A stretch of 64,000 nucleotides of DNA from the NCBI GenBank assembly GCA_023105745.1, contig JALGQZ010000008.1:25495866-25559865 (forward strand), in the 5' to 3' direction. Both the position numbers and the translations under genes were made by a program. Positions 5,339 to 24,757 of this stretch are shown here, piece after piece (the stretch's first letter is position 1; the number at the start of each line of letters is the position of its first letter). The stretch is from Austropuccinia psidii (lineage: Eukaryota; Basidiomycota; Pucciniomycetes; Pucciniales; Sphaerophragmiaceae). A model generated the notes under the pieces. The model was given only the letters and a program-made list of their open reading frames with translations. It was not told the origin of the DNA and did not search any database.

Positions 5339-7308
5339 TGTGGTATTCCATACCATTTTTTTTCACCAGGCTCAAGCTCATAATACCCCAAAACAGCAGT
5401 AAATCCAGCCTACAGGTAGACTTACACTCAAATCTTACACCAAAAGGTCAATTTTACAGCAAGAAGCTGGAATTAACTCATAAAACCATTGCACAGGCAC
5501 CAAAGGGCAGTGTATGTGTTTAAATAAATTATTCAATTTCATTATGCATATGTAAAAATCAAGTTACATATAGTAAACTAGTTACAACAAACAAGGCACC
5601 ACCCTTTAAATTACACCCCCTTACAGCCACAGGACACATGCAGCAAGAAAATTACACATGCATTAGCTACACAGCCAACTTGCATTCAAAATCACATGAT
5701 GCAAAGCTCAACTCCATGGAATTCCTGCAAGTCATTTATAACACAGCCACAGGAGTACCTTATCTTATATCCTCAGTAACCCCACTTAAAACCTTAAAAC
5801 AGAATCATAATTATTTACACCACTCATCACCTCATGCAAACCAAAGCTAGTTACAACAGGCTGCATGCAGTACACAATTCTAATTAAATCTCAACCATAT
5901 GACTATGCACAGCATGTGTCAAACTCAACAATCACATCATCTCATACATCACAGTAAATTCACCAGTACAAGAAATTATCACCTGACTTCATTTTAAAGT
6001 TCAAAAAGAAGAAAAACAACCATGACACCTGCATAAACTACACAGCCACTTCTACCAAACCTAAAATAGGACATATGCAAAGGAATTACAAGGTCATCAT
6101 GTGATACTGCATCCACCAACAGAATATCATGTGACAAGAAAGAGGCTGTGCACAACAAAAATACCCAGCCAAAATTGAATCACCTCATGTATGCAAGGAA
6201 AATTCAAGAATATCACATCATAATCAGTTCACCAAAAGACAATCATGTGATAAATGGAGGCTGTGCAGAAAGAAAATTATCACCAAACCTTAAATCCCCT
6301 GACCCATGCAATAAAGGTCCTCACCAAAAATGGAGTCACATGATGAAATCAAAAGGAATTAAAGTGGAAAACGACAGCTCCCATGGAGGGCCCTCTGGGC
6401 TCCCAAAAGGTATAAATAGAGGGGCTCTCTCCCCCAGATTTCAAAATCCCCCCCCATGAAAATTATATCCCATGCACAATATATCCTCTGCACATTACAA
6501 GCACAGGAATAAGTCATCCCTCACCTGGGAGGTAGTCCAGTATATTATAGTAAATTTACTTGCCCAGTAGCTAAGCTCAGTGGAAGTATAGTGTTGAAGA
6601 TTACCCAGTAGCTAAGCTCAGTGGAATCTTATTATTATTAAAATAAAAATAAAAATTACCCAGTACCCAATATTAGGGTTACTACTCTATTAAAATATTT
6701 TAACTAGTAAAATTAACTTCATTTAACAAGATTTAAAACTAACTTACCCATTTAAAATCAAATATCAAAGAATCTTACCTGTTAAACTTAAAAAATACTA
6801 TTTTATCTCATTATTAACACTCTTAAAAAGAAATAACAAACCTTAAAAATTATTTTACTCTATTATAACTATACCTTAACAAAATTACCTTTATCAACAC
6901 CAATCAAATTTTCCAGAAAACCTTAAATAACCCATCCTACCAAGGAATTATAACCAAGAAGAAACAACTCACCTCAATTTCACCAAAAACTATTAAAATT
7001 AAAACAGACAAGTATTTCATTAAATCTAAAAATTCACCAAATTACTGACATTATTTTTCACATTATTTATTGAATAGGTCTGATCTGAGACTGCTGAATT
7101 TTGTCTTCTGCAGTTGTAAAGGCACTTACTAATTTTATTTTGGTTTGTGAGCTCCAAGGAAGATTTTGTTCAGTATTTTAGGAGGGGCAGGCAATACAAC
7201 CTTGCCACCCTTGGTTACAGGAGTTATTAGCAATTCAAAACTAGTTACCTGTGATTTCCCCCTCCAGGTACTGCCTTATTTTAATCCCACACAAGAGGAG
7301 TTCCCACA
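5339..7308 (+). repeat. Element A 5' LTR
   Basis: Begins with TGTGGTATTCCATACCA and ends with GAGTTCCCACA, giving imperfect terminal inverted repeats. It is matched base for base by 22788-24757 apart from about ten substitutions and no length change. It contains a TATA box at 6411 and a doubled word (cccagtagctaagctcagtgg) near 6562 and 6604. The 70- and 103-codon frames inside it recur in the other LTR only because the DNA does. Confidence 0.95.
6411..6420 (+). promoter_or_regulatory. TATA box of element A 5' LTR
   Basis: TATAAATAGA preceded by ctcccaaaagg and a catggagg word. The diverged LTR G2 keeps the same arrangement (catggaggcccaaaagg then TATAAATATA at 34302), so the promoter core is conserved across the LTR superfamily. 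Confidence 0.75.
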
Positions 7309-7415: not shown

Positions 7416-10400
7416 CAAAAACTGGATTCAAATAATCAAAATCAGCGAAAAACATCATCTCAGGATTCTGAATCAACAACTCACTCTGATCATTACTATT
7501 ATCCACCAAAGCAAGAAACAAAATTAGGAGAGGAATCAGAAAAATATTATAATTTTCCTATTGCAACACCAAGAACCAATAAAAGGGACTTGAAGGTTGT
7601 GGAGAAATTCTTCCTTGATCTCCTTGAAAGAAATAAAATCAATAACTCAATACCAGAATCAAAGGAAGAAATAAATAAATCAAAAATGGATAAACCTTCA
7701 TCATCAAAATTACCTGGTAGTATGGAAGAAATTCAGGAAGAAAATCTTAATGAAGAAACTGTGGAAGGACAGGAAGAAATGTCTTCAACAGAGAGACTTC
7801 AGCAGAAGATGCTAGAAATGCAAGCAGAATTACTAGCACTAATCAAAAAGGAAGGCAAAAATAAATCATCAAGTTATACTCCACAAAATAGTCCACTTGA
7901 AGAACAAACCACCCTTCCAAGATCATTCAGGCAACATGGATCACCTTCACCTTATCCTAGACCCATGGCCACATCAACACCTTATACAGAACAAAGACAA
8001 AGTACTTTACCAAGAAGAGTAAACATTTCTGCTCAAATCCCAACTCCATTACATCAAGAAATTCCAAGAAACACTACTCCAATAGTGAAAATCAGAGCCA
8101 AGGATTATAATCTGTGGTTTGATGGAAAGGATGTTGAAAGATTCATCAAGAAAGTTGAAAATATTGCAGAAATTGAAGGAGCAAGTGGAAGAGACATTGC
8201 AAGACAAATAGCATTTTGGACAAAAGATGAAGAAATCAGTTATCATATTGAAGGAATGCCAGGATATGAAACAGCTGATTGGGATCAATTAAAAGTGGAT
8301 ATGAAAAGAAGATGGGGAACAGTCTCACCTGAAAGAAGATACAGATTATCCTCAATCACTGAATTATTCACAAAAACTCAACAAGAAGGTGGAATAAGGA
8401 ACATGACACAATACAGAAAATTCATTGGGGAATATGAAGCAATCATCACTTACCTCAAAAGATACCAATATATCCAAGGTGATATCAATAATAACCAGGA
8501 AATATTGGCCAGCCTTTCCACTGGTGTTCAAGAATCAATTTACAAAGAAATGATCAAAGACAGAGCTATGGTTCAAGCCTTGGATGGAGGTTACATCATT
8601 CCAAGATTGGATATTTTGAAATTATACATTGAACAAGACTTGGAGGCTAAGGTACTTATTCAACAAAAAGAATTTTCTAAACCAAAACCTCCAGAAAAGA
8701 AAACAAGATTTGAGGATGAAAGCTGGGATGAAGTTTTAAAACAAGTAAAAGAACTCACCCAAAAGATCAAAAATCCTCCACAACCAGAACCTCAGCCAAG
8801 AAATGAGGGAAAAGAATCAGTTAAAGAAGTTTTAAATCAACTCAAAACCCTTTCAGAAGCAGTTAATCCACCAAGAAGGAATTGGAACAATAATCAAGAG
8901 CAAAGATTCCCTCAAAATAACCAGCCATACAGGCCAAGGAATCCTTTACCACCATTTTCATCCAGTTACCAACCATACATACCAGCCCAAATGGCTCCAA
9001 GACCACCATTGAAGTGTGCTTACTGCAAGGAAGAAGGTCATACAGCAACTAGATGCACTCACCTTGCTGAAGATCTGGACAGAAGAATTGTCAGAACCCA
9101 AGGAGCATCTTACCTCTTCCCCAACTATCAGAGAGTACCTATGGAAGGGAATGAAAGTGCCAAAAACATAGTCAGGGCCTTTGCAAAAGAACAAGCAGAA
9201 CTCAACAAGAAATTCATGGAAAAACCTACAGTAAAACCAAAACCAGAAGAAGAGATTAAGCCCACTGAAAATAAATCAGATGATAAAACAACCTCAATTG
9301 CTCATGTTGAAGATTGGTCAAATTGGAAACCACCTACCATTTCCTCAGCCAATGACCCTTTTGAATCACACATTGGATTAAGACAGACAAAACAAAGAAT
9401 GGAAAGACAAGCCCAAAATCAAGAGCCAAAGAAGAAAGCAGAAATTCCAGGAACTTACATTGAAGAAGAAAAGGAAGAAGAAAGAGTAATAATTCCCACC
9501 AAATTCCAAAATTCAAATATTCCAAAACCAGACCAACCTGAGGAGGAAATTGAAAACATTGCCAATAAAAATGAAGATGAAGAAATTCCAAAACAAGAAA
9601 ATAAAGTCAGCAAGCCTCAAAAGAAACAAGTTGAAACTAAATTGGAAATTGACAAAATTATCAAGAAAATTATGCAACAAAAGATCAACCTCACCATTGA
9701 AGAAATTTTGAGGATGTCACCAAATTTTGTCCATAAATTACAGGAATTATCAGAAAAAGACAAGGAAAAGATTAAATCACTCAACTCAATGGATCTTCAA
9801 GAAAGACTATTAACCTTTGGATTCAAAGAAATACCAAAACCCAAGATTCATTATGCTTGTCCTTTGGGATTTATGGAAATCTTCATTGGAAAGGAGGAAT
9901 ATCCTATCAGAGCATTAGTGGACACTGGGGCAGAACTCAACATCATACCAGAAAAAATAGCAATCAAAGCTTCACTCACAACAAGAAATCTTAACATGAA
10001 CCTTAGGGGAATTGGAGGCCATACTACTTCATTGGTTGCACTATCAGAATTTACTCCAATCATTTTGGCTTCAGGTGAAGAAACTCTAATTCATTTCTTC
10101 ATTGCAAAAGGATCTGTCCATACAGTACTTGGAAGACCTTTCTTGGCAGACAACAATATCAGGCTGGAATTTTCTCATAAACAAGGTGAAATACTAAGCT
10201 ATCAAGAACCTGATGGAAGAAGATTATGCATGCCAATATGCAAACCTCAAGCACTTGGATGGCAAACTGGTCCACCTAGAGGAATGGATTTATGCAATAT
10301 GGCAACATTGGTCAGAAATAACCCAGGAAGGAAGGATCAAAATGCAAAAAGAGACAATACCATAATCAATTTGACCCAGAAGACCCAACATTTATCCATA

Positions 10401-10475
10401 TCTCCAAAAAGGGATAAATTTGGCCAAAAATTCAAAAACACAAAAAAAGGCAAACAGCTTCAAAAGACAATTTGA
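7416..10475 (+). CDS. gag-pro: Gag-protease polyprotein of element A
   Basis: The frame is open from 7416 (after TAA 7413-7415) to TGA 10473-10475. The first in-frame ATG is only at 7686, yet the upstream codons look coding (..NNQNQRKTSSQDSESTTHSDHYYYPP..), so a non-AUG start or splicing is possible. In order: a low-complexity acidic N-terminus, a capsid-like helical region (about 8100-8680, W.GKDVERF, ARQIAFW, WDQLKVDMKRRWG), a CCHC zinc knuckle near 9015-9054 (CAYCKEEGHTATRC), a charged linker, and an aspartic protease with DTGA near 9920 and LGRPFL near 10129. The product should form the particle and process the polyproteins. The length is normal for a fused gag-protease. No disabling change is visible. 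Confidence 0.9.
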   Translation, partial: QKLDSNNQNQRKTSSQDSESTTHSDHYYYPPKQETKLGEESEKYYNFPIATPRTNKRDLKVVEKFFLDLLERNKINNSIPESKEEINKSKMDKPSSSKLPGSMEEIQEENLNEETVEGQEEMSSTERLQQKMLEMQAELLALIKKEGKNKSSSYTPQNSPLEEQTTLPRSFRQHGSPSPYPRPMATSTPYTEQRQSTLPRRVNISAQIPTPLHQEIPRNTTPIVKIRAKDYNLWFDGKDVERFIKKVENIAEIEGASGRDIARQIAFWTKDEEISYHIEGMPGYETADWDQLKVDMKRRWGTVSPERRYRLSSITELFTKTQQEGGIRNMTQYRKFIGEYEAIITYLKRYQYIQGDINNNQEILASLSTGVQESIYKEMIKDRAMVQALDGGYIIPRLDILKLYIEQDLEAKVLIQQKEFSKPKPPEKKTRFEDESWDEVLKQVKELTQKIKNPPQPEPQPRNEGKESVKEVLNQLKTLSEAVNPPRRNWNNNQEQRFPQNNQPYRPRNPLPPFSSSYQPYIPAQMAPRPPLKCAYCKEEGHTATRCTHLAEDLDRRIVRTQGASYLFPNYQRVPMEGNESAKNIVRAFAKEQAELNKKFMEKPTVKPKPEEEIKPTENKSDDKTTSIAHVEDWSNWKPPTISSANDPFESHIGLRQTKQRMERQAQNQEPKKKAEIPGTYIEEEKEEERVIIPTKFQNSNIPKPDQPEEEIENIANKNEDEEIPKQENKVSKPQKKQVETKLEIDKIIKKIMQQKINLTIEEILRMSPNFVHKLQELSEKDKEKIKSLNSMDLQERLLTFGFKEIPKPKIHYACPLGFMEIFIGKEEYPIRALVDTGAELNIIPEKIAIKASLTTRNLNMNLRGIGGHTTSLVALSEFTPIILASGEETLIHFFIAKGSVHTVLGRPFLADNNIRLEFSHKQGEILSYQEPDGRRLCMPICKPQALGWQTGPPRGMDLCNMATLVRNNPGRKDQNAKRDNTIINLTQKTQHLSISPKRDKFGQKFKNTKKGKQLQKTI

Positions 10476-11316
10476 AGACTCAACCTTTGAAGATGAATTA
10501 CCCAACATAGTTTACAAGCCAATTAACAACAATGAAGAAACCTTCCAGATTTTAGTAGATGGAAATAAAAAAATAAATGGAAATCCTTTCAAACCTAAAC
10601 CCAAAAAGAAGAAAGTCAGACTTAGTGAACATCATGAGCTCTCAGATGAAGAAATTATAAATGAAATTGAAGAAGACCTCAAAATTATGGAAGAAAGAGA
10701 CAAAAATTTAAAAGAGACATACCATATCAACTTCTTGGACAGACCATTGAACAACCAAGAAGAACCTTATGAATGGAAACTGGAAAACCCTGAATTCATC
10801 CAACAACCTCCCAATGAAGATGATGAAACAGAATCCATCCTAGAAAATGAATACAACTACCTTTATCTGCTATATATTACCTTTGAAGACCTTTATGGGG
10901 ATGAAGCTCAAGAAATTTTATTTGAAGATAAATATTTATGTCAACTTCCAGGAGCAAACTTGAACAAAATCCAATTCTTAGAGATATTAACTGAAGAAGG
11001 AATTAAAGGAAACCTCTCAAATCAATTCTGGGATAAAGAATTTTCAATGGGAACTTTACCAAGAAGAGGTCTCTACTTCAATCAAATTTGGGCCCAGTGG
11101 TACCTTGGATTAAATGGATCAACATATCAAACTGGAAGAATAAAATGGATTGGAGATGGATATATATTCATTGATGAAGACTTATGGTGGTCAGAATTTC
11201 CATCAGAACCAGAGATTGAGGAAAGAAATAACTTTGTGGAAGCCCTCAAAGACCTTATTTTGGCCAGATTGCTCAACAGACACTCACCTTTCCCACTTGG
11301 GGGAGCTCAACTTTGA
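10375..11316 (+). CDS. Accessory ORF2 of element A, +1 frame after protease
   Basis: The frame is open from 10375 and overlaps the end of gag-protease by about 100 nt in the +1 frame. No AUG occurs in its first ~90 codons, so the simplest reading is a +1 frameshift extension of gag-protease within the A-rich overlap. The N-terminal third is charged (KPKPKKKK, acidic EEIINEIEEDL). The C-terminal half holds a tryptophan-rich domain: LPGANLNKIQFLEILTEEG, GNLSNQFWDKEF, GRIKWIGDGYIFIDEDLWW. This domain is shared with ORF4, so the two are paralogues. No membrane segment, zinc motif or known enzyme motif is seen, and I do not recognise the family. Confidence 0.7.
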   Translation, partial: PRRPNIYPYLQKGINLAKNSKTQKKANSFKRQFEDSTFEDELPNIVYKPINNNEETFQILVDGNKKINGNPFKPKPKKKKVRLSEHHELSDEEIINEIEEDLKIMEERDKNLKETYHINFLDRPLNNQEEPYEWKLENPEFIQQPPNEDDETESILENEYNYLYLLYITFEDLYGDEAQEILFEDKYLCQLPGANLNKIQFLEILTEEGIKGNLSNQFWDKEFSMGTLPRRGLYFNQIWAQWYLGLNGSTYQTGRIKWIGDGYIFIDEDLWWSEFPSEPEIEERNNFVEALKDLILARLLNRHSPFPLGGAQL

Positions 11317-11414: not shown

Positions 11415-12022
11415 AAGGGCAGTGACTTCCTGCCTTAACAAAGAAGAAATTCATCAACAAATTATTCCTTAAAAATTAACAAAACAAAAAAAAATAAAAA
11501 TAAAAATAAAAAAAAACTTACAAAAATATATCAATCACCTCCACCATGGCCAGTTCACCAACTTTTGGATCCTATGGGGAAGAATTAATCAAAGAGGACC
11601 CAATTATCAATGAAGAACTTCATTGGTCACCAGAAGATGAAGATTTCAATAAAGAGAACCTTTGGCACTTTAAGAATACTTCATCAATATCAAGAAACCA
11701 AGAAATTGAAGAAATCCAGGAATTGCTGAAAGTTTTGGAGGTTTCTGACAAAACCAATAATCAAATTACTCAAACATTGATGGACCAGTTAAATTTCAAA
11801 CCATCAAGGCCCATCTTGAAGACACATAACAGCTCTAAAAATCAAAAAAACAAACAAAATAGTCAGATTTAAACTCAATCATCACTAGGCAGTGACCTCC
11901 TGCCTTATCAAAGAGGAATATCAACTCTCATCAACTAAAATCCATAATTTCACTCACCAATAATAATAATAAAAAAAAGAAAAAGAATAGCCATAAGATC
12001 ACTAGGCAGTGACTTCCTGCCT
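11415..12022 (+). promoter_or_regulatory. Three copies of a GGCAG/CTGCC hairpin upstream of accessory AUGs
   Basis: Copies at 11415-11436, 11887-11905 and 12004-12022 read (A)GGCAGTGAC(t/c)TCCTGCCTTA, with stem AGGCAG/CTGCCT, each followed by (a)tcaaagaggaat or a near match. The first lies between ORF2 and ORF3; the other two lie between ORF3 and ORF4. The placement suggests a signal for splicing, internal initiation or shorter transcripts. Confidence 0.6.
11546..11872 (+). CDS. Accessory ORF3 of element A
   Basis: 108 codons. The start ATG sits in a near-ideal context (CCACCATGG), which supports real translation. The protein is small, acidic at its N-terminus (EELIKEDPIINEELHWSPEDED) and basic at its end (SSKNQKNKQN), with a leucine-rich helical centre. 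No domain was recognised. It lies between the two paralogous ORFs 2 and 4 and is preceded by the first GGCAG hairpin. It could correspond to the missing N-terminal part of an ORF2/ORF4-type protein. Confidence 0.6.
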   Translation: MASSPTFGSYGEELIKEDPIINEELHWSPEDEDFNKENLWHFKNTSSISRNQEIEEIQELLKVLEVSDKTNNQITQTLMDQLNFKPSRPILKTHNSSKNQKNKQNSQI

Positions 12023-12172
12023 TATCAAAGAGGAATACCCAAGTTCTTACCCAAAAATTACCATCCAAAAACCCATTAAACTTACCCTCAAGCTAATTTT
12101 GATAAATAAATCTGATAAAATTTTCAAATATTATTACCTTTTGATACTTTCAAACCCACACAACCCTACAAA

Positions 12173-12859
12173 ATGGAGTCATGGCCATTACCTGAAGAAA
12201 ATACCTGGTCAATGGACACAGATGTCAGCTGGCTAGAAGAAAAAGAATTTTGGGCCAATTACATTAATCAACAAGAGATTGATGAAAATCCTGACTGGTT
12301 CTTTCAAATAAAACCAGAACCCTGTCCTGATATTTCCACCATAACACTTCCATATATTGAGTTTGAGGACATCTTTGAACAAGAAAAATCACTATCAGAA
12401 ACTGTCATTTGTCATCCATGGAAAGAATTACCTGGATTCAACCTCACAAAGTATGAATTCTTGGATTTACTGACCTGGGATGGAGTTGAAGGCAACCTTG
12501 GAAACAATTACTGGAATGAATCATTTTACATGGATGAAAACCTCAGGAAATCATTATTTTGGAGGACCTGGGAATGCCAGGACTGGTTTAACCTCCAGGA
12601 TTTTCAAATTAAAAGTGGAACAATAAGCAAGATCTCAACAGGGTATATTATTAATAATTCCAAATGGGATTACCACTGGGAAGAAACACTTATACCAGCA
12701 ATCTTCAGCATTAGAGATGGTGCAATTAAATGGAATACAGAATACTTCAACTCTTTCTGTAAAGAATATTTGTTTAAAAGTCTAAAAAGGGAGAAATGTA
12801 GGGGAGGAAATTTCATCAAGAATGAATTAGTAAATAAAATACTTGGTAAAAGGAGCTAA
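12173..12859 (+). CDS. Accessory ORF4 of element A, paralogue of ORF2
   Basis: 228 codons from ATG 12173 (context acaaaATGG). It is tryptophan-rich and acidic at the start (WSMDTDVSWLEEKEFW). Its central domain aligns with the ORF2 C-terminal half: LPGFNLTKYEFLDLLTWDG against LPGANLNKIQFLEILTEEG, GNLGNNYWNESF against GNLSNQFWDKEF, and SGTISKISTGYII against TGRIKWIGDGYIF. A basic tail follows (SLKREKCRGG). It is the last sense ORF before pol, 6.7 kb away. The function is unknown; no membrane segment or signal peptide was seen, which argues against an envelope. Confidence 0.7.
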   Translation: MESWPLPEENTWSMDTDVSWLEEKEFWANYINQQEIDENPDWFFQIKPEPCPDISTITLPYIEFEDIFEQEKSLSETVICHPWKELPGFNLTKYEFLDLLTWDGVEGNLGNNYWNESFYMDENLRKSLFWRTWECQDWFNLQDFQIKSGTISKISTGYIINNSKWDYHWEETLIPAIFSIRDGAIKWNTEYFNSFCKEYLFKSLKREKCRGGNFIKNELVNKILGKRS

Positions 12860-13020
12860 TCAAAAGAACTCTCAACTGCTAAGTCCCTATTTCTTTGTTT
12901 TTTCTTAATCCATCTTCATTCCATTAATATCATTATTATTTATTTCTTCTATTTATTTTATTTTATTCTTATTTCATTTCATTTCTTATTATTTAATTTT
13001 GTTTTAAGAATCAACCAGAT

Positions 13021-13054
<34 letters not shown>

Positions 13055-14029
13055 ATAAATAAATATATCAAAAAAAAAAAAAAAAGAGAGAAAACATCAG
13101 TCTACACTCAAATCATACTCATCAAATTACAATGATACAAAAGAACTTAAATTAACTTAAAATAGTTAATTTTTCTAAAAAATATTAATTTAACTTCCTC
13201 CACAAATAAAAAATAAAATAATTTATAAATATGTAAAAGCCTTCAAAATAGTACTACAACTTTCTAAAAAATCAGATTTGATCTCATTTACTGTGGTTTT
13301 ACTTATTTATCAAAATTTCACTTGATTTAAATTTGGAACTTATTTATTTTATATCCAAGTTATCTTCCAATATAACTCAATCTATTTCTAATCCAGACTT
13401 AGTCCTTAACTTTTATTTATTTATTTATTTATTTATTTATTTTTTTTCTTTTTTTCTTTTCTTTTATTTTATTAAAAAAAAAAAAAAAAAAAAGAGAGAG
13501 GAGTTCTTTTTGATGAGCTAAAAAGCTTCCCAGAAGAACTCAATTAAATTTCCAGATCCAAACGGACAAGCAGGATTCACCAAAGAAGTTAATTATATCG
13601 TTTGAGAGTAATAATCAAGGTGATATTACTTTACGGAACAAGACAGAACAACTTAATTACAAATTTAAATAACAAAATACAAAGCGCTCTGACCGAATTG
13701 GATCAGTAATTTATCAAAAAATCAGGGAGCCCTCTAATTAGGCATAAGTAGCTTTACTTAGCCTGATTACTGGAAGAGGAGGATATAGCTTCAAAAAGGA
13801 ACTCAACATGCACAACAAGAAGATCCAGAAGCAACAACATCAAGAAAACTAAACTACAAATCCTTGACTTTTGGTTACAGATCTCAAGGCAATCGAAATA
13901 TATTTTAATAAAAGAAATTGGCCGAAGGACAAGAAAGAAAACTTCTGATATCGAACCAGTTTCTAGTAGAGACTCGGCTTAGTCACTATTAAACAACAAT
14001 GTAGAGCAGAGGAAATGTGGACTTACTTA
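12860..14029. other. Non-coding stretch with long A and T tracts
   Basis: A runs at 13022-13051, around 13071-13085 and at 13474-13493, and a (TTTA)n stretch near 13413-13441. From about 13530 the composition becomes more balanced. No sense ORF of interest was found. Confidence 0.6.
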
Positions 14030-14440
14030 TCACTTGAAACGTGAAGTTATTGCACGACCGTCCTGACCACGAGGTCGGAATTCATAAGTATGGGCAGCTG
14101 GATTCTTAGGACCTTGATGGTTGGAAGCCGGCCCACTTGAAAAGAAAACCTCGGGATCGTCGACGAAAAGTTTGGGGAGGTAATCGCCGTTTATGAAGGT
14201 ATAAAAAGCTAACGCCCCAGACGGAGGCTCCTCCTCAGGTGATGGGGATCGGGTAGAGCTGAAGGAGGAATTAGCGAGAGCGGGTGTCGAAGGGGGAGTC
14301 ATTGAGGTGACCCACTCCCACATGGATTGTTTGATGGGCATCGCTGGGGTACCGAAAACCAGTTCCTCGAACTCTTCAATTGTAAAGGGCTCAATTGCCT
14401 TTAAGAAGGTGGAAGAGTATACCGGCTTATCGTGGCTCAT
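14030..14440 (-). CDS. Antisense ORF, likely terminal exon of a captured or antisense gene
   Basis: 136 codons, opposite to all element A genes, from ATG 14438-14440 to a stop at 14030-14032. Composition and codon use are more GC-rich than in the sense ORFs. The peptide has an ordered start (SSTFLKAIEPFTIEEFEELVFG), a serine/proline linker, and GALAFYTFINGDYLPKLFVDDPEVFF. No family was recognised. Upstream on the same strand are splice-like signals (next entry), so this may be one exon of a multi-exon gene. Confidence 0.5.
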   Translation of the reverse strand: MSHDKPVYSSTFLKAIEPFTIEEFEELVFGTPAMPIKQSMWEWVTSMTPPSTPALANSSFSSTRSPSPEEEPPSGALAFYTFINGDYLPKLFVDDPEVFFSSGPASNHQGPKNPAAHTYEFRPRGQDGRAITSRFK

Positions 14441-15540
14441 TGTTTGCAGGTTATAAAAAAAAACGAGATACTAAAGAAAGGGAGAGAGAATTTAAATAGT
14501 TTCCATAAGAGCAACATAATAAATTCAAGTACTTTAAGCTAGAAGTAAAAAAAAAAAAAAAAAAAAACTTACCGCAAGTTCGAGTCAACACAACGGTTCA
14601 ATAATGCTCAATGGAAGGAAATTGGAACGGGGAAATAGTCAATTTGGAGCCCTATTTATACCATTTCGGAAAGGATCTTCATCAGTATGGTATGGGAAGA
14701 ACCTTAAGGAAAGTAGCAATACAAACAACCACTTTACCTCTTCCACCGTACCCCAATAATACTGGGGTTCACTTCGTCAAAAGCCCTCAAAAGCCCCACA
14801 TCAGCTGATACCGGCACAAATGTGTCTTGACCTCGCCAAATCAATAACGGTACCGGTTAAGTAAAGCACAGATCCGACGGCCGAGCTACGCCAAGAATCC
14901 AAATTGTTACCTGCAACTCATCTAGAATAATACCAGTAAGCGGGAATAGAACAAATAGCCAAAACGGTAGTTGACCAATAGCAAATGCAATTTCGGGTCC
15001 GAGGGAGGGTGTTAATGCACAATCCCACCTAATTCATAAAAAGAAAGAAAAAATAATAATAATAATAATATTAAATAAATAAATAAATAATATAATAATA
15101 TAAAATAATAAAAATTGCTAAAGGAATACGACGACAGCGGGTTTAAGAAGCAAACGTAGATATAGCGAGATATAGGAAGTATAAAGGAATAAGAGAAGGG
15201 TGGGTTTAGCTTGCTCGGCTCGGTATTACCTTGGAAGTACATGGCCACTGGATTTGTAAAAAAAAAAAGATTTATTAGTATCACGTCTTCATAAGTTAAA
15301 ATGGGAGCAGCCGAGCAAAGGACAGCTGTATTATCATTAAGAACAAGCCACACTCCAGGAGCGGAATTAATAAGGGAAACGACTTTACGCTGCTTGTCAC
15401 GACCTGGCCTGGCTCGTCTTCCACTTCCTGAAACCTATTGAAGGGAATACTACACCGACCAGCAGTGTTTGAGGTTCTCGCGAGGCTAGGAGACCTCTCC
15501 AGGGACCTGTTCTTGAGGGAAACGATGGTTTGAGAAGTTA
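14441..15540 (-). other. Probable upstream exons and introns of the antisense gene
   Basis: On the minus strand, 15400-15290 reads as coding (..VVSLINSAPGVWLVLNDNTAVLC.., ..APILTYED) and is followed near 15285 by a TACTAAT branch-like site, a T tract and CAG. Next come a short stretch and GTAATA. Near 14575 a GTAAGT donor is followed by a T tract and TTCTAG. A short ATGAGTTGCAG exon-like piece bounded by TAG and GTAACA lies near 14910. These are donor/acceptor patterns read by eye; exon joins are not established. Confidence 0.4.
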
Positions 15541-15933
15541 TTCGGCATTGTAAAAGCTTTGTGAGGTGGCTTCAACCACAAGGAAGTCTTTTTCAAGAAA
15601 AAAAAAATATAATATAATAAAACAAAAAAATAAAAAATAAAAAATAAATTAAAATAAAAATAAATAAATAATAAAATTTTCAAAAGATAGAGAAGTCAGA
15701 ATAAATAAATCGGGGTGCAGGAGTTGCAGCGAGGAAATAGACCTCCTGCAGCCGGTACCGGGCTGTACGACCCAATAGCTAGCTAGGACTAAACAAATGG
15801 GTCCTGGATAAAACAAAATATAATATATATATAATTAATAATAAATTAATGATGGATTAATGTATAAGTATATTGAAAATAAAAAAAGAAAAATAATAAA
15901 AATAAAAAAGTAAAAAATTAATTTAAAATATTC

Positions 15934-15964
<31 letters not shown>

Positions 15965-15990
15965 ATAATAATAAAATACAAAAAAAAAAA
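15541..15990. other. A-rich spacer before hairpin array
   Basis: Long A tracts (15934-15962, 15980-15992) and AT repeats. An inverted pair tGCAGGAG...CTCCTGCa lies near 15718-15763. No gene seen. Confidence 0.5.
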
Positions 15991-17299
15991 AAGCCCTCAG
16001 TATGGCTATAAACTGCTTGTTATTTTATTGTTATTATCACTTTATATTCTTTTTTTACATGATGCTGACATATGTTATTTTGATGTGATGCAGGGCTACA
16101 AACAATAAAATGCCCTGAGCAAGGCATTAAACTGCTCAATTTTTATTATTTATGTTTTTTTTAATTACTAATTATTTAATTCACTGAAATTTTAGTTTTT
16201 TTTTAGTTCAATGAAATGAATGAAGGAAACAAGATAAAAAAGCCCTCAGCAAGGCTTTAAACTGCTTGCTTTGATTTTCTTTTGTTTTTGATAATATTGG
16301 CTAAATTTCCTTTATTGGCCTTTAAATTACTAACAATGTTTTTTTTATTTTTTTATTTTCAGTTATTACATTAAAAAAGGAGCCCTCAGCAAGGCTTCAA
16401 ACTGCTTGTTTCTTTTTTTCATTCTAAATTTATCTTGGATATAAAATGGATCTGACACATTTAATTGTGCTACAGGTCTTCAATATACAAATGAGCCCTA
16501 AGTATGGCTATAAACTGCTGGTTTGAAGTTTTCTATCTTGCTTTTTTTTATGCTGATTTTATATTTTATATGGTATTTTCTAATTAAAACTTATAAAGGA
16601 AAAGCCCTCATCAAGGCTTCAAACTGATGGGCTTAAAAAATATATATAAAAATAAAAATAAAACAAAATAACAAAAAGCCCTAAGCAAGGCTTCAAACTG
16701 CTATTTTATCTTTTATGCTTTCTTATTTTGAATAATAACTATACTAAAATATTTTATTTGGCTTCTACAGGTATTCAACATTAATAAAATATTTCTCTTA
16801 TTTTATAGGCTTAAGTATGCTTTTAAAGTGAAAATGAGTCCTCAATAAGACTATAAACTGTTTTAACTACTTATAAAACTTGGCTTTGAAGATAAATCAC
16901 ATGCCATGAAACCCCAAAGGCAACAATAAGGTGCCTGGACACAAGATATGGTCCTTGGCAAGACCATAAACTGCCCACTCAAATTATCAACAATAATCAA
17001 AGAAAATAAAAACAAGATATGGTCCTTGGCAAGACCATAAACTGCCCCTTCAATTATCAACAATAAATCACTAAAATTATCAACAAGGACCAAAGCAAAG
17101 AAACAAATGGTCCTTGGCAAGACCATAAACTGCCCCTTCAATTATCAACAATAAATCACTAAAATTATCAACAAGGACCAAAGCAAAGAAACAAATGGTC
17201 CTTGGCAAGACCATAAACTCCATATTTAAATATTAACAAAAAAAAAGATTTAACAAGGACTTACAAAGGGGGATAAGTCCTAGGCAAGACTATAAACTA
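15991..17299 (+). repeat. Array of 13 covarying RNA hairpins with conserved AAACUGC tail
   Basis: Copies start at 15991, 16111, 16240, 16381, 16494, 16602, 16676, 16836, 16948, 17019, 17107, 17195 and 17276. Each has a 4-6-bp stem, an 8-nt loop like CUCAGCAA or CUUGGCAA, the other stem strand, then (A/U)AAACUGC. Stem pairs change together: AGCC/GGCU, UGCC/GGCA, AGUC/GACU, AUGGUC/GACCAU. Spacing is irregular (about 70-160 nt) and the sequence between copies is mostly unrelated, except for an ~88-bp tandem duplication at 17045-17220. Compensatory changes indicate selection on RNA structure. There is no coding potential. Confidence 0.85.
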
Positions 17300-18294
17300 C
17301 CTAAGGTTTCATTTCTTATTTTATTTTTTTTCTAATTTTATGTCATTAAAAACAAGAATTAGAAAGATTTACTGACTTTAACCTTTTGAACATATTCTTT
17401 TATTTCTTTTTTGAATTTATTTATTCATTTTCAATAAGAATTAGGGTCATATCCCATTCATGAGCTCAAGAATATTCTATTATACTTTTCCTACTATTAC
17501 AACAAGAGCCATTAAGTTGGCTTAATTTTTCAACTCAATAATAGCAACAATTTAAAAAAAAAAAAAACTCTACATCAATTATTATTTTTTTTAAAAATAA
17601 TCAATTTATTTGGAATATTTCTTCAGTTACAAGAAAGTGATTGGAACTTGTTTGAAAAGAAGAAGTATTTGTGCCATGCAGGCATTAATTGAACTCTGAA
17701 GGAGTTATTTATATTAAAAACTCATAAATTGATGACATAATTTGGGGAATTTACATATTAATAACACCTCAATGTGCTGTTTATTCCAAATGGAATTGAA
17801 AAAGCCCCCCAAAAGCAAACAAGAGTTTTTTAAAATTGTACAAATTTTCAATTTTACTGTTTATATTTTTTTTAAAAAACTCAAATGCATTTATGGGTAA
17901 CAGAAAATCTGAACCATAAAGGGGATGGACTTGAAATAAAGTCTGAGTCACAATGATGATTCCAAAGAGGAAGAGTTGTGGCATCATAAGGGTCATTATA
18001 TGAATAAAGGACTCAAATTATGATCATTCAACTGTGTAATATTAATCATAAATACTCTCAAGAGCACAAATTTTTACTGATTGGCACAAATTACCACCTT
18101 CAACCAAACAGTTCCATGATTTTGATTGTGATTTAGGATCATTTCTTTTGAAATTTGATTTTTACTCAGATATCTCATTTAATGGGTATTTTATACTCAC
18201 AGTAAAAGAATAAAAAATAAAAAAATAATAAAAAAATTATTGAATAATCATCAAAATAAAATTTATGTATATTTACTGTATCATTATTTATCCT

Positions 18295-18333
<39 letters not shown>

Positions 18334-18941
18334 ATAAAAAATAAGGGGTGGGTAAACTTATTTCTTACACTATCCCTTATAGTGGAAGTTTTGGGGGAAC
18401 GAGGATATATCCTCTTCAAAATTTGAAAACCAACTCAAGATTTTTAAATGGAGAGGGTGGCCCTCATCCAAACAAATATTATTAAACAATATCTATCAAT
18501 AAATTAATATTAAAATCAATTTTCAAATCACCTTATTATTACAATTTTTTATTTTTTCATTTCTTTATAACAGGTGTAATTCAGGAATACAAAAGAACAA
18601 AAGGAAATACATTATTTTTAAGAAATAGCAAGAGAATTTGGAAACAACTTATCATAGGGAAATTATTCACAATACTGAAAATGAAGAAGATTATTTATGA
18701 AGAAAAAGAGGAGTTCCTTATGGATTGACCTCTGGACAACACAAGACCTTGGACACTTCTTTGATTCTGGATTGAAACTCATTTGGAATTCAAGAATAAG
18801 TGGTCAGGATTTATGGACTGAAGGTTGACTCACTGGATTAATTATTGACTCAGGACTCACTCAACATGATGAACCAACAAGATGATGTAAACACTAAACT
18901 CAAATTGCCCTTGGGATTTTAAAGAAGCTTGAAGACTCAAG
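17300..18941. other. Non-coding interior of element A
   Basis: AT-rich, with a 34-base A run at 18298-18331. The minus frame at 17781-17996 looks like chance. No hairpin copies were found here. Confidence 0.55.
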
Positions 18942-19435
18942 AGGTCCTCAGCATGACACTAAACTGCTTCCCCTGTAGACTTGGGCAGGGAAACTTATAA
19001 AAAAAATAATAACAGCCAAGAAGCTGGAGGGGATTGTCCTGGTCAGGAGAAGTGCTGAAGGACCATCTTTGTCCTCAGCATGACAATAAACTGCTCCCTT
19101 TGTGTAACAGGAACAAGGGGTTTTACAGGTGTTTATCATTATCAAATTGGCAAAAATGAACAAAGTGAAGTCTCAAGCCATCAATGAAGACAGGAAAATT
19201 CCTTATCAAGAAATGAAACAACCAGAATAATCTTGCATCAATTGGGAATCATGAAGATTGAAGAATAAAACAAGAGTCAAGTGGAATCCAAAATCAAGCC
19301 CAAAGGAGCTCAAGAATAAAGATAAGCCCTTGGATTAGGCCAGGAGGTCCTTGCATGACTTAAACTGCAGGACTTGTATACCTAATATACAGGGGTTACA
19401 CACCTAGTTGTAGGTCCTGTATGACCTTAAACTAC
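18942..19435 (+). repeat. Second cluster of the covarying hairpin, 4 copies
   Basis: Copies at 18942, 19070, 19345 and 19411 have stems AGGUC/GAC(a)CU, UGUC/GACA, GUC/GAC and AGGUC/GACCU. Loops are CUCAGCAU, CUCAGCAU, CUUGCAU and CUGUAU, followed by (a/u)AAACUGC or AAACUAC. They sit within 650 nt upstream of the pol start, so the two clusters bracket a 1.6-kb gap. Confidence 0.8.
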
Positions 19436-19577
19436 ATTTTTTATGGAAGAAAGAAGAAAGAAGAACTGTGAAGACCTCTAGATTTACAGGACACTAGCAA
19501 ATTCTCAGAAATCATTAATAAAAATAAAAATAAAAAAAAATAAAAAATAAAAAAATAATAATAATAACTAATTGAGA

Positions 19578-22500
19578 ATGGATCACCAAATTTTAGAAGC
19601 CAAATACAAATCAGTCCTGAAGAAGGTGAGACCAGTCAATGAGCCAATGCCTCAAGACCTTAACCCACCTTTGGAAAGACCACCTTTGTCAAGAGATCCT
19701 TATGAAACACCCTTATCACCAAACCCACCTATATTTCAAGAAACCTTCAAGGTCACCCATGAAAGACTCCAAGCAGTCAATTTTGGCCCACCAGGATGGT
19801 TATCAAATGAAGAAATCAATTTACTCAAAAATGTTATTACCTTAAGGGAAAAAGCAATAGCTTTCTGTGAAGAAGAAAGAGGATTACTCAAACACTCATA
19901 TGGAAAACCTTACAAGATACCAGTAATACCTCATGAACCTTGGCAGAAGAAACCAATTCCCATTCCCAAATCAATTTTACCTCAGTTTACTGAATTAATC
20001 AGAGAAAGAATCAGGACTGGACTCTATGAACAATCCACCTCAAGCTACACAAGCCCAATCTTTTGTGTGGCCAAATCAAATGGGAAACTCAGAATTGTCC
20101 ATGACCTTCAAGAACTCAACAAAGTCACCATCAAGGATGCTGGCTTACCACCTCATATTGAAGAATTTGTAGATGCATTTGCAGGAAGAGCATGCTATGG
20201 ACTAGGAGATATCATGGGAGGATATGATGAAAGAGAATTAGATGTCACTACAAGACCTCTCACCACTTTTGAAACACCCCTTGGAAGGATGCAGCTCACA
20301 AGACTACCCCAAGGAGCCACCAACTCAGTAGCAGTATACCAAGCCCAAATGACCTGGATACTCCAAGAAGAAATACCAGAAAGTGTAGGAATTTTTATTG
20401 ATGATGGAGGAATAAAAGGACCAAGATCACTTTCTAACCAAGAAACACTACCAGAAAACCCCTCAATCAGAAGATTTATATGGGAATATGCCATAACCTT
20501 AGAAAGAATTTTATTCAGGATTGAAGAAGCAGGACTTACTATCTCAGGATCCAAGTTTGCATGCTGTGTTCCAGCTTTGGACATAGTAGGGCATGTTGTA
20601 TCATTCAAAGGAAGAACAATCTCAAAACAAAAGATTAACAAGATTCAAAATTGGCCAACACCTCTCAACAAAAAGGAAATAAGAGGATTTCTTGGACTTT
20701 GTGCCTATGTAAGGATGTTCATTGAAAACTTCTCACAAGTTGCATCACCACTCAGAAGGCTCACCAGAGAAGATGTTGACTGGGATTGGGATCAAAAATG
20801 TGAAGAAGCTTTCCATAAGCTCAGAAGAATAGTTGGAGAAGAGATAACCCTCAAGAAATTGGATTATGACAAAGGAGCAGGAAAAATTAAGCTAGCAGTA
20901 GATTCAAGTTACATTGCTGCAGGAGCAGTACTCACTCAAGAAGACAAAGAAGGAAAGGACAGACCAGTATTATATGAATCAATAACTTTTTCAAAATTGG
21001 AATCAAAATACTCACAACCCAAATTGGAACTCTGTGGAGTTGCAAGAATTCTCAAAAAGCTACAAACCATACTTTGGGGACAACATTTTGAATTACAGGT
21101 TGATGCCAAGGCTTTAATTGAAATGATCAACACCCCTTGCTTACCCAATGCCCCCATGACAAGATGGGTGGCTTTCATTCAGCTATTTTCCTTTGATTTG
21201 GTACACAAACCAGGGAAAACTTTCACTATGCCAGATGGGCTATCCAGAAGACCAAAAAACTCAGAAGAAGAAGATGAAGATGCACCAGAATTTGATGAAG
21301 AAGAAGATTGGATCAAGCCACACCCTGGATTTGGGGCTAAGAATGTAAATTCACTCCATTTTTCAGGAGTACAAGTACCAATAAAACAAGAAGGATTTTG
21401 GAAGAGAATGCAGGAATACTTAAGTACAATGAAAAAACCACAATCAAGTAAAGATGAAGAATTTAGAAGGATAAAAAGAAGGTCACCCAAATTTTTCTTG
21501 GAAGATGGCCAGCTTAAAAGAAGAAATAACCCAAACCCTCAACTGGTGATATCAAGTCAAGAAATTCAAAGCTACATTTTAAAATCACTTCATGAAGAAA
21601 TGGGCCACAGAGGGGAAAATGAAGCTTATAGAAGAATTAAAGCAAGATTTTGGTGGGAAGGAATGAAGAAATCAGTCAAGAAATGGGTTCAATCTTTCCT
21701 GGCCTGCCAAAAGAGAAGTCAAAACTTACAAAGGGAACAAGGAAGGCCTACAGCAACATCAACAATCTTTGAAAGGGTCAGTATGGATGCAGTCCATATC
21801 AAATCTGGAAGATGGAAATATATGGTTGTGGCCAGAGATGATTTTTCAGGATGGCCAGAAACAGTTGTACTAGGCAAATTAACAGCAAAAGCAGTTGCAG
21901 AATGGTTCACCTCAGAATGGATATGCATGTATGGCTCACCAAAAGAAGTAACTGTTGATGGGGGGCCAGAGTTTGGAAAAGAATTGCAAGATGCAGTAAA
22001 GAAAGCAGGATCAAGGATCAGAGTAACCACACCTTATTACCCAGAGTCTCAAGGAATGGTTGAAAGGGGCCATAAGCAACTCAAAGATGCATTAATCAAG
22101 ATTTGTGGAGAAAATGGAGGAAAATGGAAAAAATATCTACCTTTGGTTACATTGGCTGACAGAATCTCAACTAAAAGGACAACTGGTTTCTCACCATATG
22201 AACTCCAATTTGGACAACTACCAGTATTACCAATTGACATTGAAACAAAAACATTTTTAGCAGTAGAATGGCACAAAATATCCACAACTGAGGAATTACT
22301 GGAAGCCAGAGCCAAACAGTTGGAAGGAAAAGAAGATATGAGAAGAAAAGCAGCAGAAAAACTCAAAAAATCAAGGGAAGACTCAATGAAATATTGGGAT
22401 AGAAGAATGGCACACCAACTAAGATCACCACTTAAGCCAGGAGATTTGGTCCTGGTTTACAACAAAGCAATAGAAACTAATTGGGGACTACTTTTCAAAA

Positions 22501-22739
22501 ACAAATGGAATGGACCCTACAGGGTAATTAAACAAATAAACAATGGACCATATGAACTTGAGGAACTTGATGGAACAGAATTAGCAAGAAGATTTGCAGC
22601 ATCTCAAGTCAAGAGGTTCTACCCAAGAGGAAAGTTGATAAACACAAAAGAAGACACAGGAGAAGAACAAAGTGAAGAAGATGAATCAATAAATGAGGAA
22701 GAGGTATTTGAGGAAACCACAGAATCAGATGAAGAATAG
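19578..22739 (+). CDS. pol: Pol of element A: reverse transcriptase, RNase H, integrase
   Basis: ATG 19578 (gagaATGG) opens about 1,053 codons. The reverse transcriptase keeps its aspartates: LGDIMGGYD (about residue 208) and FIDD in place of YVDD (about 272), with LPQGATNS between. RNase H has AVDSS (about 441), KLELCGV (482) and QVDAKAL (508). Integrase has an N-terminal HEEMGHRG histidine pair and CQKRSQ, but the first cysteine of the usual C-x2-C is phenylalanine (SFLACQ). The core is intact: SMDAV (about 736), VDGGPEF (793) and MVERG (828). A GPY region and an acidic tail follow; there is no chromodomain. Pol has its own AUG far from gag, so expression by readthrough from gag is unlikely. 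Confidence 0.93.
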   Translation: MDHQILEAKYKSVLKKVRPVNEPMPQDLNPPLERPPLSRDPYETPLSPNPPIFQETFKVTHERLQAVNFGPPGWLSNEEINLLKNVITLREKAIAFCEEERGLLKHSYGKPYKIPVIPHEPWQKKPIPIPKSILPQFTELIRERIRTGLYEQSTSSYTSPIFCVAKSNGKLRIVHDLQELNKVTIKDAGLPPHIEEFVDAFAGRACYGLGDIMGGYDERELDVTTRPLTTFETPLGRMQLTRLPQGATNSVAVYQAQMTWILQEEIPESVGIFIDDGGIKGPRSLSNQETLPENPSIRRFIWEYAITLERILFRIEEAGLTISGSKFACCVPALDIVGHVVSFKGRTISKQKINKIQNWPTPLNKKEIRGFLGLCAYVRMFIENFSQVASPLRRLTREDVDWDWDQKCEEAFHKLRRIVGEEITLKKLDYDKGAGKIKLAVDSSYIAAGAVLTQEDKEGKDRPVLYESITFSKLESKYSQPKLELCGVARILKKLQTILWGQHFELQVDAKALIEMINTPCLPNAPMTRWVAFIQLFSFDLVHKPGKTFTMPDGLSRRPKNSEEEDEDAPEFDEEEDWIKPHPGFGAKNVNSLHFSGVQVPIKQEGFWKRMQEYLSTMKKPQSSKDEEFRRIKRRSPKFFLEDGQLKRRNNPNPQLVISSQEIQSYILKSLHEEMGHRGENEAYRRIKARFWWEGMKKSVKKWVQSFLACQKRSQNLQREQGRPTATSTIFERVSMDAVHIKSGRWKYMVVARDDFSGWPETVVLGKLTAKAVAEWFTSEWICMYGSPKEVTVDGGPEFGKELQDAVKKAGSRIRVTTPYYPESQGMVERGHKQLKDALIKICGENGGKWKKYLPLVTLADRISTKRTTGFSPYELQFGQLPVLPIDIETKTFLAVEWHKISTTEELLEARAKQLEGKEDMRRKAAEKLKKSREDSMKYWDRRMAHQLRSPLKPGDLVLVYNKAIETNWGLLFKNKWNGPYRVIKQINNGPYELEELDGTELARRFAASQVKRFYPRGKLINTKEDTGEEQSEEDESINEEEVFEETTESDEE

Positions 22740-22776
22740 AGAGCTCTCACCTGGAATGCTGAGGACAGCATTAAAT

Positions 22777-22787
22777 GGAGAGGGGGA
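22777..22787 (+). other. Polypurine tract of element A
   Basis: ggagaggggga directly abuts the TGTGG start of the 3' LTR, as expected for the plus-strand primer. Confidence 0.8.
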
Positions 22788-24757
22788 TGTGGTATTCCAT
22801 ACCATTTTTTTTCACCAGGCTCAAGCTCATAATACCCCAAAACAGCAGTAAATCCAGCCTACAGGTAGACTTACACTCAAATCTTACACCAAAAGGTCAA
22901 TTTTACAGCAAGAAGCTGGAATTAACTCATAAAACCATTGCACAGGCACCAAAGGGCAGTGTATGTGTTTAAATAAAGTATTCAATTTCATTATGCATAT
23001 GTAAAAATCAAGTTACATATAGTAAACTAGTTACAACAAACAAGGCACCACCCTTTAAATTACACCCCCTTACAGCCACAGGACACATGCAGCAAGAAAA
23101 TTACACATGCATTAGCTACACAGCCAACTTGCATTCAAAATCACATGATGCAAAGCTCAACTCCATGGAATTCCTGCAAGTCATTTATAACACAGCCACA
23201 GGAGTACCTTATCTTATATCCTCAGTAACCCCACTTAAAACCTTAAAACAGAATCATAATTATTTACACCACTCATCACCTCATGCAAACCAAAGCTAGT
23301 TACAACAGGCTGCATGCAGTACACAATTCTAATTAAATCTCAACCATATGACTATGCACAGCATGTGTCAAACTCAACAATCACATCATCTCATACATCA
23401 CAGTAAATTCACCAGTACAAGAAATTATCACCTGACTTCATTTTAAAGTTCAAAAAGAAGAAAAACAACCATGACACCTGCATAAACTACACAGCCACTT
23501 CTACCAAACCTAAAATAGGACATATGCAAAGGAATTACAAGGTCATCATGTGATACTGCATCCACCAACAGAATATCATGTGACAAGAAAGAGGCTGTGC
23601 ACAACAAAAATACCCAGCCAAAATTGAATCACCTCATGTATGCAAGGAAAATTCAAGAATATCACATCATAATTAGTTCACCAAAAGACAATCATGTAAT
23701 AAATGGAGGCTGTGCAGAAAGAAAATTATCACCAAACCTTAAATCCCCTGACCCATGCAATAAAGGTCCTCACCAAAAATGGAGTCACATGATGAAATCA
23801 AAAGGAATTAAAGTGGAAAACGACAGCTCCCATGGAGGGCCCTCTGGGCTCCCAAAAGGTATAAATAGAGGGGCTCTCTCCCCCAGATTTCAAAATCCCC
23901 CCCCATGCAAATTATATCCCATGCACAATATATCCTCTGCACATTACAAGCACAGGAATAAGTCATCCCTCACCTGGGAGGTAGTCCAGTATATTATAGT
24001 AAATTTACTTGCCCAGTAGCTAAGCTCAGTGGAAGTATAGTGTTGAAGATTACCCAGTAGCTAAGCTCAGTGGAATCTTATTATTATTAAAATAAAAATA
24101 AAAATTACCCAGTACCCAAGATTAGGGTTACTACTCTATTAAAATATTTTAACTAGTAAAATTAACTTCATTTAACAAGATTTAAAACTAACTTACCCAT
24201 TTAAAATCAAATATCAAAGAATCTTACCTGTTAAACTTAAAAAATACTATTTTATCTCATTATTAACACTCTTAAAAAGAAATAACAAACCTTAAAAATT
24301 ATTTTACTCTATTATAACTATACCTCAACAAAATTACCTTTATCAACACCAATCAAATTTTCCAGAAAACCTTAAATAACCCATCCTACCAAGGAATTAT
24401 AACCAAGAAGAAACAACTCACCTCAATTTCACCAAAAACTATTAAAATTAAAACAGACAAGTATTTCATTAAATCTAAAAATTAACCAAATTACTGACAT
24501 TATTTTTCATATTATTTATTGAATAGGTCTGATCTGAGACTGCTGAATTTTGTCTTCTGCAGTTGTAAAGCCACTTACTAATTTTATTTTGGTTTGTGAG
24601 CTCCAAGGAAGATTTTGTTCAGTATTTTAGGAGGGGCAGGCAATACACCCTTGCCACCCTTGGTTACAGGAGTTATTAGCAATTCAAAACTAGTTACCTG
24701 TGATTTCCCCCTCCAGGTACTGCCTTATTTTAATCCCACACAAGAGGAGTTCCCACA
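22788..24757 (+). repeat. Element A 3' LTR
   Basis: Same 1,970-bp length as the 5' LTR with about ten substitutions, for example in the aaataaattattc/aaataaagtattc, cccaatattagg/cccaagattagg and gtaaaggcac/gtaaagccac positions. No insertion or deletion was noticed. Confidence 0.95.
23860..23869 (+). promoter_or_regulatory. TATA box of element A 3' LTR
   Basis: TATAAATAGA, identical in context to 6411-6420. It could drive transcription outward into the decayed chromovirus downstream. Confidence 0.7.

Follow-up and report, generated by a model that had tools for sequence, protein, structure and literature searches.

A 64,000-nucleotide stretch of the genome of the rust fungus Austropuccinia psidii, hereafter the window (positions 25495866-25559865 of contig JALGQZ010000008.1, in an assembly of 1.015 Gb), contains a Ty3/gypsy long terminal repeat (LTR) retrotransposon of 19.4 kb at 5339-24757, in which 17 copies of a small RNA pseudoknot, all on the sense strand, lie within the gap directly upstream of the pol open reading frame (ORF). 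The nearest known RNA to this motif is, by sequence, coremin, an Xrn1-resistant RNA of plant viruses. By analogy with coremin we consider it probable, at about 0.6, that the array acts as a row of coremin-like exonuclease-resistant RNAs (xrRNAs), which would serially block a 5'-to-3' exonuclease in the sense-strand RNA and preserve the pol-bearing RNA.

A covarying pseudoknot in 17 copies

The unit, 24-26 nt long, is an H-type pseudoknot, made of two interleaved helices with covariation support in both the phage and the rust sets described below. Its first helix, S1, comprises 4 bp with a C-G closing pair and carries a loop of the form CU(N)NGCA(A/U); in the second, S2, the NGCA of the loop pairs with a UGCN that follows an A-rich bridge ending in AAAC. 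S1 is present in 17/17 copies (98.3% of its cells paired; c14 lacks the outermost pair), and S2 reaches its full 4 bp, formed with G-U allowed by four loop bases and the four bases after AAAC, in 15 of the 17, whereas Markov simulations of the region (3.6 kb, 300 runs) gave 0.54 such matches on average and four at most. The closing pair, the CU at the loop start, the penultimate loop A and the AAACU are invariant in all copies. These are listed here together with two hairpins resembling the hp2 of coremin, taken up below.

15992..16017, plus strand: pseudoknot c01
16111..16136, plus strand: pseudoknot c02
16241..16266, plus strand: pseudoknot c03
16381..16406, plus strand: pseudoknot c04
16494..16519, plus strand: pseudoknot c05
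16603..16628, plus strand: pseudoknot c06, S2 AUCA/UGAU, compensatory
16677..16702, plus strand: pseudoknot c07
16837..16862, plus strand: pseudoknot c08, S2 AAUA/UGUU, compensatory
16950..16975, plus strand: pseudoknot c09, S2 GGCA/UGCC
17021..17046, plus strand: pseudoknot c10, within a tandem duplication
17109..17134, plus strand: pseudoknot c11, within a tandem duplication
17197..17222, plus strand: copy c12, S1 intact, S2 lost, tail AAACUCCA; not a full pseudoknot
17276..17301, plus strand: copy c13, one S2 mismatch (C/A); not a full pseudoknot
18943..18968, plus strand: pseudoknot c14, outermost S1 pair mismatched
18971..18990, plus strand: hp2-like hairpin right after c14, -8.4 kcal/mol, 0/30 shuffles as good
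19070..19095, plus strand: pseudoknot c15
19096..19120, plus strand: hp2-like hairpin right after c15, -9.6 kcal/mol, 3/30 shuffles as good
19346..19369, plus strand: pseudoknot c16, 7-nt loop, S2 UGCA/UGCA
19413..19436, plus strand: pseudoknot c17, 6-nt loop, spacer UUAAACUAC as in coremin, S2 UGUA/UACA

S2 varies on both strands (AGCA/UGCU, AUCA/UGAU, AAUA/UGUU, GGCA/UGCC, UGCA/UGCA and UGUA/UACA). Among the 15 distinct window copies, 96.6% of the cells are paired compared with 85.2% after shuffling, and the covariation score amounts to 0.412 compared with 0.192, neither value being matched in any of 500 shuffles; when the partner is shifted by one to three columns, pairing falls to 18-43%. 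Further pair types were not above the shuffles, 340 of 500 being as high. Since c09-c12 sit in recent tandem duplications of 71 or 88 bp, the 17 copies do not represent 17 independent events. By eye, a probable decayed eighteenth copy appears between c07 and c08 at 16800-16835 (AGGC UUAAGUAU GCUU UUAAAGUG), as well as a further weak look-alike near 17505.

The original prediction, drawn from the letters of the window alone, had described 13 plus four copies of a single-stem hairpin with an 8-nt loop and an AAACUGC tail. All 17 were found where it had placed them, and every stem variant that it named occurs, with different Watson-Crick pairs at stem positions 1 and 3; its hairpin corresponds to S1, which is real, but the second helix had been overlooked. 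The 8-nt loop holds for 15 of the 17 copies (7 nt in c16, 6 nt in c17) and the exact tail for 12, the other five sharing its AAACU. That no frame is open across the array was correct as well, the longest stop-free run in the three plus frames being 80 codons. Overall, a multi-copy, structured, sense-strand RNA signal within a giant Ty3/gypsy element is supported by these data.

Rfam 15 gave no credible match over the motif in window positions 14500-20500 and 11 phage loci at E values up to 5, nor, at gathering thresholds, in 17 loci (10 bacterial and seven phage). The sole overlap, AgvB over c01, lies on the minus strand with E 4.5 and 19 bits where the cut-off is 56, and was taken as chance.

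Arrays elsewhere in the rust genome

The exact motif pattern matched the genome 6,614 times, and its reversed control never. Twenty array loci, the window's own included, bear 10-22 motifs each, on a single strand per array, and this strand is that of pol wherever pol was found. A random 75 of the 108 distinct 26-mers from these loci (seven of them from the window array) showed 92.0% of cells paired versus 81.8% when shuffled and a covariation score of 0.376 versus 0.176, with 0/500 shuffles as high in both cases; counts of covarying pairs and of pair types were not above the shuffles. With this degree of pairing across 20 loci, the stems are not broken freely in other copies; free breakage, like an absence of covariation, was an outcome that the original prediction had named as counting against it. 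Some decay is nevertheless visible in the rust arrays, since the two weakest pairs, S1-3 and S2-2, are unpaired in 12 and 14 of the 75 motifs, respectively. Between the window array and the 19 others, motif cores are 94.3% and linkers 86.1% identical over the BLAST-aligned parts, the core exceeding the linker in 19/19 comparisons.

Six array stretches, each 9.9 kb long, were inspected, and in three of them pol lies downstream of the motifs on the same strand. Counted from where the last motif starts, the pol alignment begins after 137 and 138 nt in two arrays and after 158 nt in the window; in the third pol-bearing array the distance to the pol alignment is 220 nt, and the last motif was not found there. 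A diverged subfamily, whose pol is 75-83% identical to that of the window, has pol downstream in three of four stretches, which carry two, nine and eight motifs by a looser rule. Motif and pol thus occur together in this subfamily too, which indicates that their association predates the present copies. Three of its loci (L305, L306 and L308) keep the pol-proximal motif, and by eye a hairpin CUCCCUUGU...ACAAGGGG follows it.

The motif in phages and bacteria

The motif pattern also matched at least 120 stretches of IMG/VR, whose contigs we took as phage without host data; their flanks differ between most of them, and one scrambled-loop pattern with the same specified bases gave no match. Phage and rust motifs share identical unpaired bases and both helices, while differing in arrangement: phage stretches hold one to eight copies (eight in L118), mostly in intergenic gaps, whereas rust arrays are dense and stand before pol. 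Pair counts were made on distinct 31-mers, namely 157 of 165 phage matches and 160 of 298 rust matches. Of the 157 phage motifs, gathered on unpaired and invariant bases, every one is paired at S1-3, with four pair types, and at S2-3, with five; S1-2 forms in 156, S2-4 in 154 and a fifth pair of S2 in 140. As 116 of these rows match a search pattern that fixes part of both helices, the free test lies in the other 41, where the pairs S1-3, S1-2, S2-3, S2-4 and the fifth S2 pair form in 41, 40, 41, 40 and 38, respectively. Likewise, in the 32 distinct 26-mers, of 124, that fall outside the search pattern (set A4), 97.7% of cells are paired compared with 75.8% when shuffled, with a covariation score of 0.675 versus 0.239 and 17 versus 12.1 further pair types, each unmatched in 500 shuffles. 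The consensus of this set, CGUCCUGAGCAUGACGUUAAACUGCU, differs from coremin chiefly in the loop.

Gene context in phages was taken from a crude ORF caller with a minimum of 55 amino acids (aa). Although random positions fall inside predicted ORFs 86% of the time, 138 of 168 phage motifs (118 loci) lie outside them. The gene downstream of these 138 is on the same strand in 120 cases and on the opposite strand in 12, with none in six; the motif stands a median of 37 nt from the same-strand start and 8 nt from the same-strand upstream stop. In Lactobacillus phage phiEF-1.1 and Staphylococcus aureus phage phiNM4 it directly precedes the scaffold and major capsid genes, and phage DW2 carries it at the corresponding site, where the annotation at the scaffold position reads alanyl-tRNA synthetase. 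In several phage loci the motif stands shortly before a tRNA gene, identified by Rfam in L032, L052 and L068, by annotation in L317, and by eye in L005, L019, L030, L035 and L120. The 27 Vibrio phage records with a match look like one clone (record lengths 72254-72258); in the one inspected, the match shares 10 nt with an annotated ORF on the opposite strand and still folds as the motif.

A scan of bacteria gave at least 117 stretches; among the 80 listed, many belong to Omnitrophota, Deltaproteobacteria, Clostridia and Saccharibacteria. Three classes were sampled with 291, 274 and 295 genomes, and in each sample the seed genome alone matched, which suggests that the motif is rare in chromosomes, sparse as these samples are. 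Downstream proteins were scanned for 93 of 105 phage and 42 of 57 bacterial cases, short or duplicate-looking ones being dropped by hand. Their variety makes a riboswitch for a single gene unlikely as the general role in phages, where the 93 proteins hit 105 PHROG families of which the commonest occurs in 10 members, and a gene-specific sensor is likewise unlikely in bacteria, with 42 diverse proteins. Seven of the 42 are Rrf2-family regulators (L147, L179, L183, L186, L218 from Omnitrophota, L237 and L262), these loci being picked out by 47-54% identity to the L147 protein, and the motif upstream of these genes could perhaps represent a chromosomal use.

Relation to coremin and other exonuclease-resistant RNAs

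Coremin, GUCCGAAGACGUUAAACUAC, stalls Xrn1 in vitro (PMC10520033), and further work on the coremin of beet necrotic yellow vein virus (BNYVV) has been published (PMC5869530). The loops tested obey a rule, YGAD/YGNNAD, with G required at position 2; coremin-like motifs with loops of 5 to 8 nt have been reported, and Xrn1 was resisted by rule-fitting hexaloops, one heptaloop and one octaloop and not by pentaloops, according to the same source, which also puts the group as of 2023 among those with no solved structure (PMC10520033). The window motif resembles this class (xrRNA_C, BNYVV RNA3 and relatives) in being a small hairpin with a C-G closing pair in 17/17 copies. Of the four rules for the loop it follows all but the one on position 2: in all 17 copies the first base, Y by rule, is C, the penultimate is A and the last is A or U, never C. 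The inner stem is GUC/GAC in 10 of the 17, and the spacer comes near that of coremin, with AAACU in 17/17, AAACURC in 14 and identity over nine bases in c17.

The motif departs from coremin in having S2 as a continuous covarying 4-bp helix (5 bp in most phage copies), where coremin's comparable contact is described only as a proposed loop-spacer interaction (PMC10520033), and also in being many-copy within a DNA-integrated retroelement and present in phage genomes. Sequence comparison suggests how the two forms might be related: in coremin, the C and U within CUAC would be the partners of the required loop G and A, and the rust and phage variant would fill the position between these two putative pairs with another Watson-Crick pair. 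Such pairing is consistent with the reported consequences of altering the loop A and the C and U of the spacer (PMC10520033). It does not hold for near-canonical phage copies in which the final C of the spacer is absent; these occur in Lactobacillus phage JNU_P5, in the L. johnsonii prophage Lj928, between two cistrons, and in cyanophage S-CRM01, between two tRNA-Glu genes (spacer CUAA versus CUAC).

Among named phages, BLAST with the canonical coremin query gives 19 records, of which three were inspected, those of the near-canonical copies just described. The canonical hexaloop form (YGNNAD) is found in 41 IMG/VR stretches with 39 distinct contexts, 34 of them outside ORFs; of these, 25 are followed by a gene on the same strand, six by one on the opposite strand and three by none. 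Both loop types therefore appear to share a niche. The flavivirus and tombus/polerovirus xrRNAs are likewise pseudoknots that block 5'-to-3' exonucleases, some of them tandem or intergenic, yet their folds are larger, as in a 59-nt construct with a 9-bp pseudoknot; no sequence resemblance to the motif was seen by eye, no alignment having been made.

The original prediction could point to no named RNA of such a kind among Ty3/gypsy retrotransposons, in agreement with our search of the open-licence literature; a named relative, coremin, does exist, but outside retroelements. No report of the motif in retrotransposons or phages was found in that literature, most subscription papers and preprints being outside its reach, and the open-licence titles and abstract beginnings on coremin and Xrn1 held none on phages or retroelements.

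Proposed mechanism and alternatives

The exonuclease block is suggested by the likeness to coremin, by the placement 5' of phage genes and by the fact that an unrelated flaviviral xrRNA fold blocks both Xrn1 and bacterial RNase J1 (PMC5760640); covariation of both helices in three sets (window, 75 rust and 32 phage motifs) supports it further. The 3' strand would be wrapped around the 5' end, as it is in other xrRNAs, and the exonuclease would halt at S1. The enzyme may be XRN1, whose presence in the rust we assume, and the rust loop variant would have to resist it. Once the long transcript is decapped or cut, seventeen imperfect serial blocks could leave a stable 3' RNA bearing pol, separate from gag and protected at its 5' end, from which pol expression might benefit. 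Such an RNA can be likened to the coding subgenomic RNAs discussed for intergenic xrRNAs of plant RNA viruses, whose distances to the start codons that follow are 5-20 and about 135 nt (PMC6299227). In the window, the last copy ends 141 nt before the first in-frame pol ATG (19578), and an ATG in another frame lies at 19443.

Several observations weigh against this proposal. Loop position 2 is U in 17/17 window copies, not the G that coremin requires, and the required hp2 is clear only after c14 and c15 and weak after c16; hairpin folding after each copy gave none or a weak one (no better than -3.1 kcal/mol) for the other 14 of the 17, and a general hp2 requirement was rejected for most copies of the motif. 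Decay intermediates are uncapped, and translation of pol would need cap-independent initiation; the slowing of scanning ribosomes by coremin, taken up below, counts against the proposal too. The other three of the six array stretches show no pol within their 9.9 kb. In bacteria, a search for RNase J covered the genomes behind 48 of the 80 listed loci, and it scored above the cut-off in just 28 of these motif-bearing genomes or metagenome-assembled genomes (MAGs), so that a link to the exonuclease is not strict there; it was at best weak in both Omnitrophota tested (G001 and G022) and in two proteobacterial MAGs (G012 and G014), although weak matches mean little, as the control also matches in E. 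coli. The 30-nt phage consensus had no match in 20,395 E. coli genome records, which fits the RNase J idea weakly.

Coremin and its hexaloop form also slow scanning ribosomes in vitro (PMC10520033). The pseudoknots might accordingly act on ribosomes, stopping scanning or leaking ones before pol and insulating or coupling phage cistrons, and the short distances of phage copies from the preceding stop (where they start) and the following start (before which they end) would suit such a role. We regard it as unlikely: the array begins 3.1 kb past the last upstream ORF of at least 150 codons, which ends at 12859, so that scanning ribosomes are unlikely there, 17 copies seem too many, and the S-CRM01 copy stands between tRNA genes, where no ribosome is expected.

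The original prediction had favoured a signal for packaging, dimerisation or binding of Gag or accessory proteins. Many copies per genomic RNA and an array in an internal non-coding region are compatible with this. What counts against it is that LTR elements usually have their packaging signals close to the 5' leader and gag, and that a motif identical in its fold and its unpaired bases is common in phages, where it occurs between genes and where there is no retroviral Gag. Its resemblance to the Xrn1-stalling coremin (PMC10520033) likewise leaves this reading unsupported as the most likely one, and we rate its chances as small.

More improbable again is a nuclear version of the exonuclease block, in which cryptic poly(A) sites in the A/T-rich spacer would be cleaved prematurely and the array would then stop the Rat1/XRN2 'torpedo', allowing RNA polymerase II to continue into pol. 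It would suit the region before pol, where about 6.7 kb after the second accessory ORF have no stop-to-stop frame of 150 codons and are largely A/T-rich, as well as the ability of the flaviviral xrRNA to block nucleases of different kinds (PMC5760640), but it is purely inferred. Passive growth of a functionless tandem repeat, for which the duplications around c09-c12 could speak, is hardly credible, as linkers diverge while paired changes keep both helices and cores are the better conserved part in every array compared.

Returning to the exonuclease block, a broader proposal, which we put forward tentatively and at somewhat less than even odds, is that coremin and the form with extended pairing constitute a general roadblock to 5'-to-3' exonucleases, used by DNA phages against RNase J-type enzymes, by RNA viruses and by an LTR retrotransposon, and that the rust arrays, with thousands of copies per genome, would serve to produce or shield a pol RNA of its own through controlled decay, in place of frameshifting or splicing. 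If so, xrRNAs, described for RNA viruses in the papers cited, would also serve a retrotransposon and DNA phages, and the phage copies would be a counter-example to the description of RNase J1 as an enzyme that xrRNAs never naturally encounter (PMC5760640). An element in which 9 kb separate pol from the end of gag would also have a way of expressing pol separately. For the coremin group, the covariation provides a pseudoknot that is explicit and can be tested.

The host element and its surroundings

The published A. psidii genome comprises 1.02 Gb with more than 90% transposable elements, Gypsy predominating (PMC8063080). The element in the window has the LTRs, the protease and the order reverse transcriptase (RT)-RNase H-integrase of Ty3/gypsy elements. 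Its features are the following.

5339..7308, plus strand: 5' LTR, 1970 bp, TG...CA
7416..10475, plus strand: gag-protease ORF, 1019 aa stop to stop, RVP protease (Pfam 1.1e-6)
10375..11316, plus strand: accessory ORF 1, 313 aa
12119..12859, plus strand: accessory ORF 2, 246 aa, distant paralogue of accessory ORF 1
19572..22739, plus strand: pol ORF (RT-RNase H-integrase), Pfam RVT_1, RT_RNaseH, Integrase_H2C2 and rve
22788..24757, plus strand: 3' LTR

The two LTRs are 99.5% identical (10 mismatches over 1970 bp), and GTGT flanks both outer ends of the element. Accessory ORFs 1 and 2 have no Pfam match and are related to each other at a BLASTP E value of 8e-16 (35% identity over 106 aa); all 60 homologues listed for accessory ORF 1 carry the name Austropuccinia psidii MF-1. 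No relatives of pol were found in IMG/VR.

Directly before the element, at 4038-4966, lie tandem repeats with periods of 51 and 359 bp. Further downstream, a sequence of 0.95-1.4 kb occurs in four copies that are 87-98% identical and in both orientations (40072-41520, 45413-46646, 49186-50908 and 52272-53716), and these copies are perhaps the LTRs of another element.

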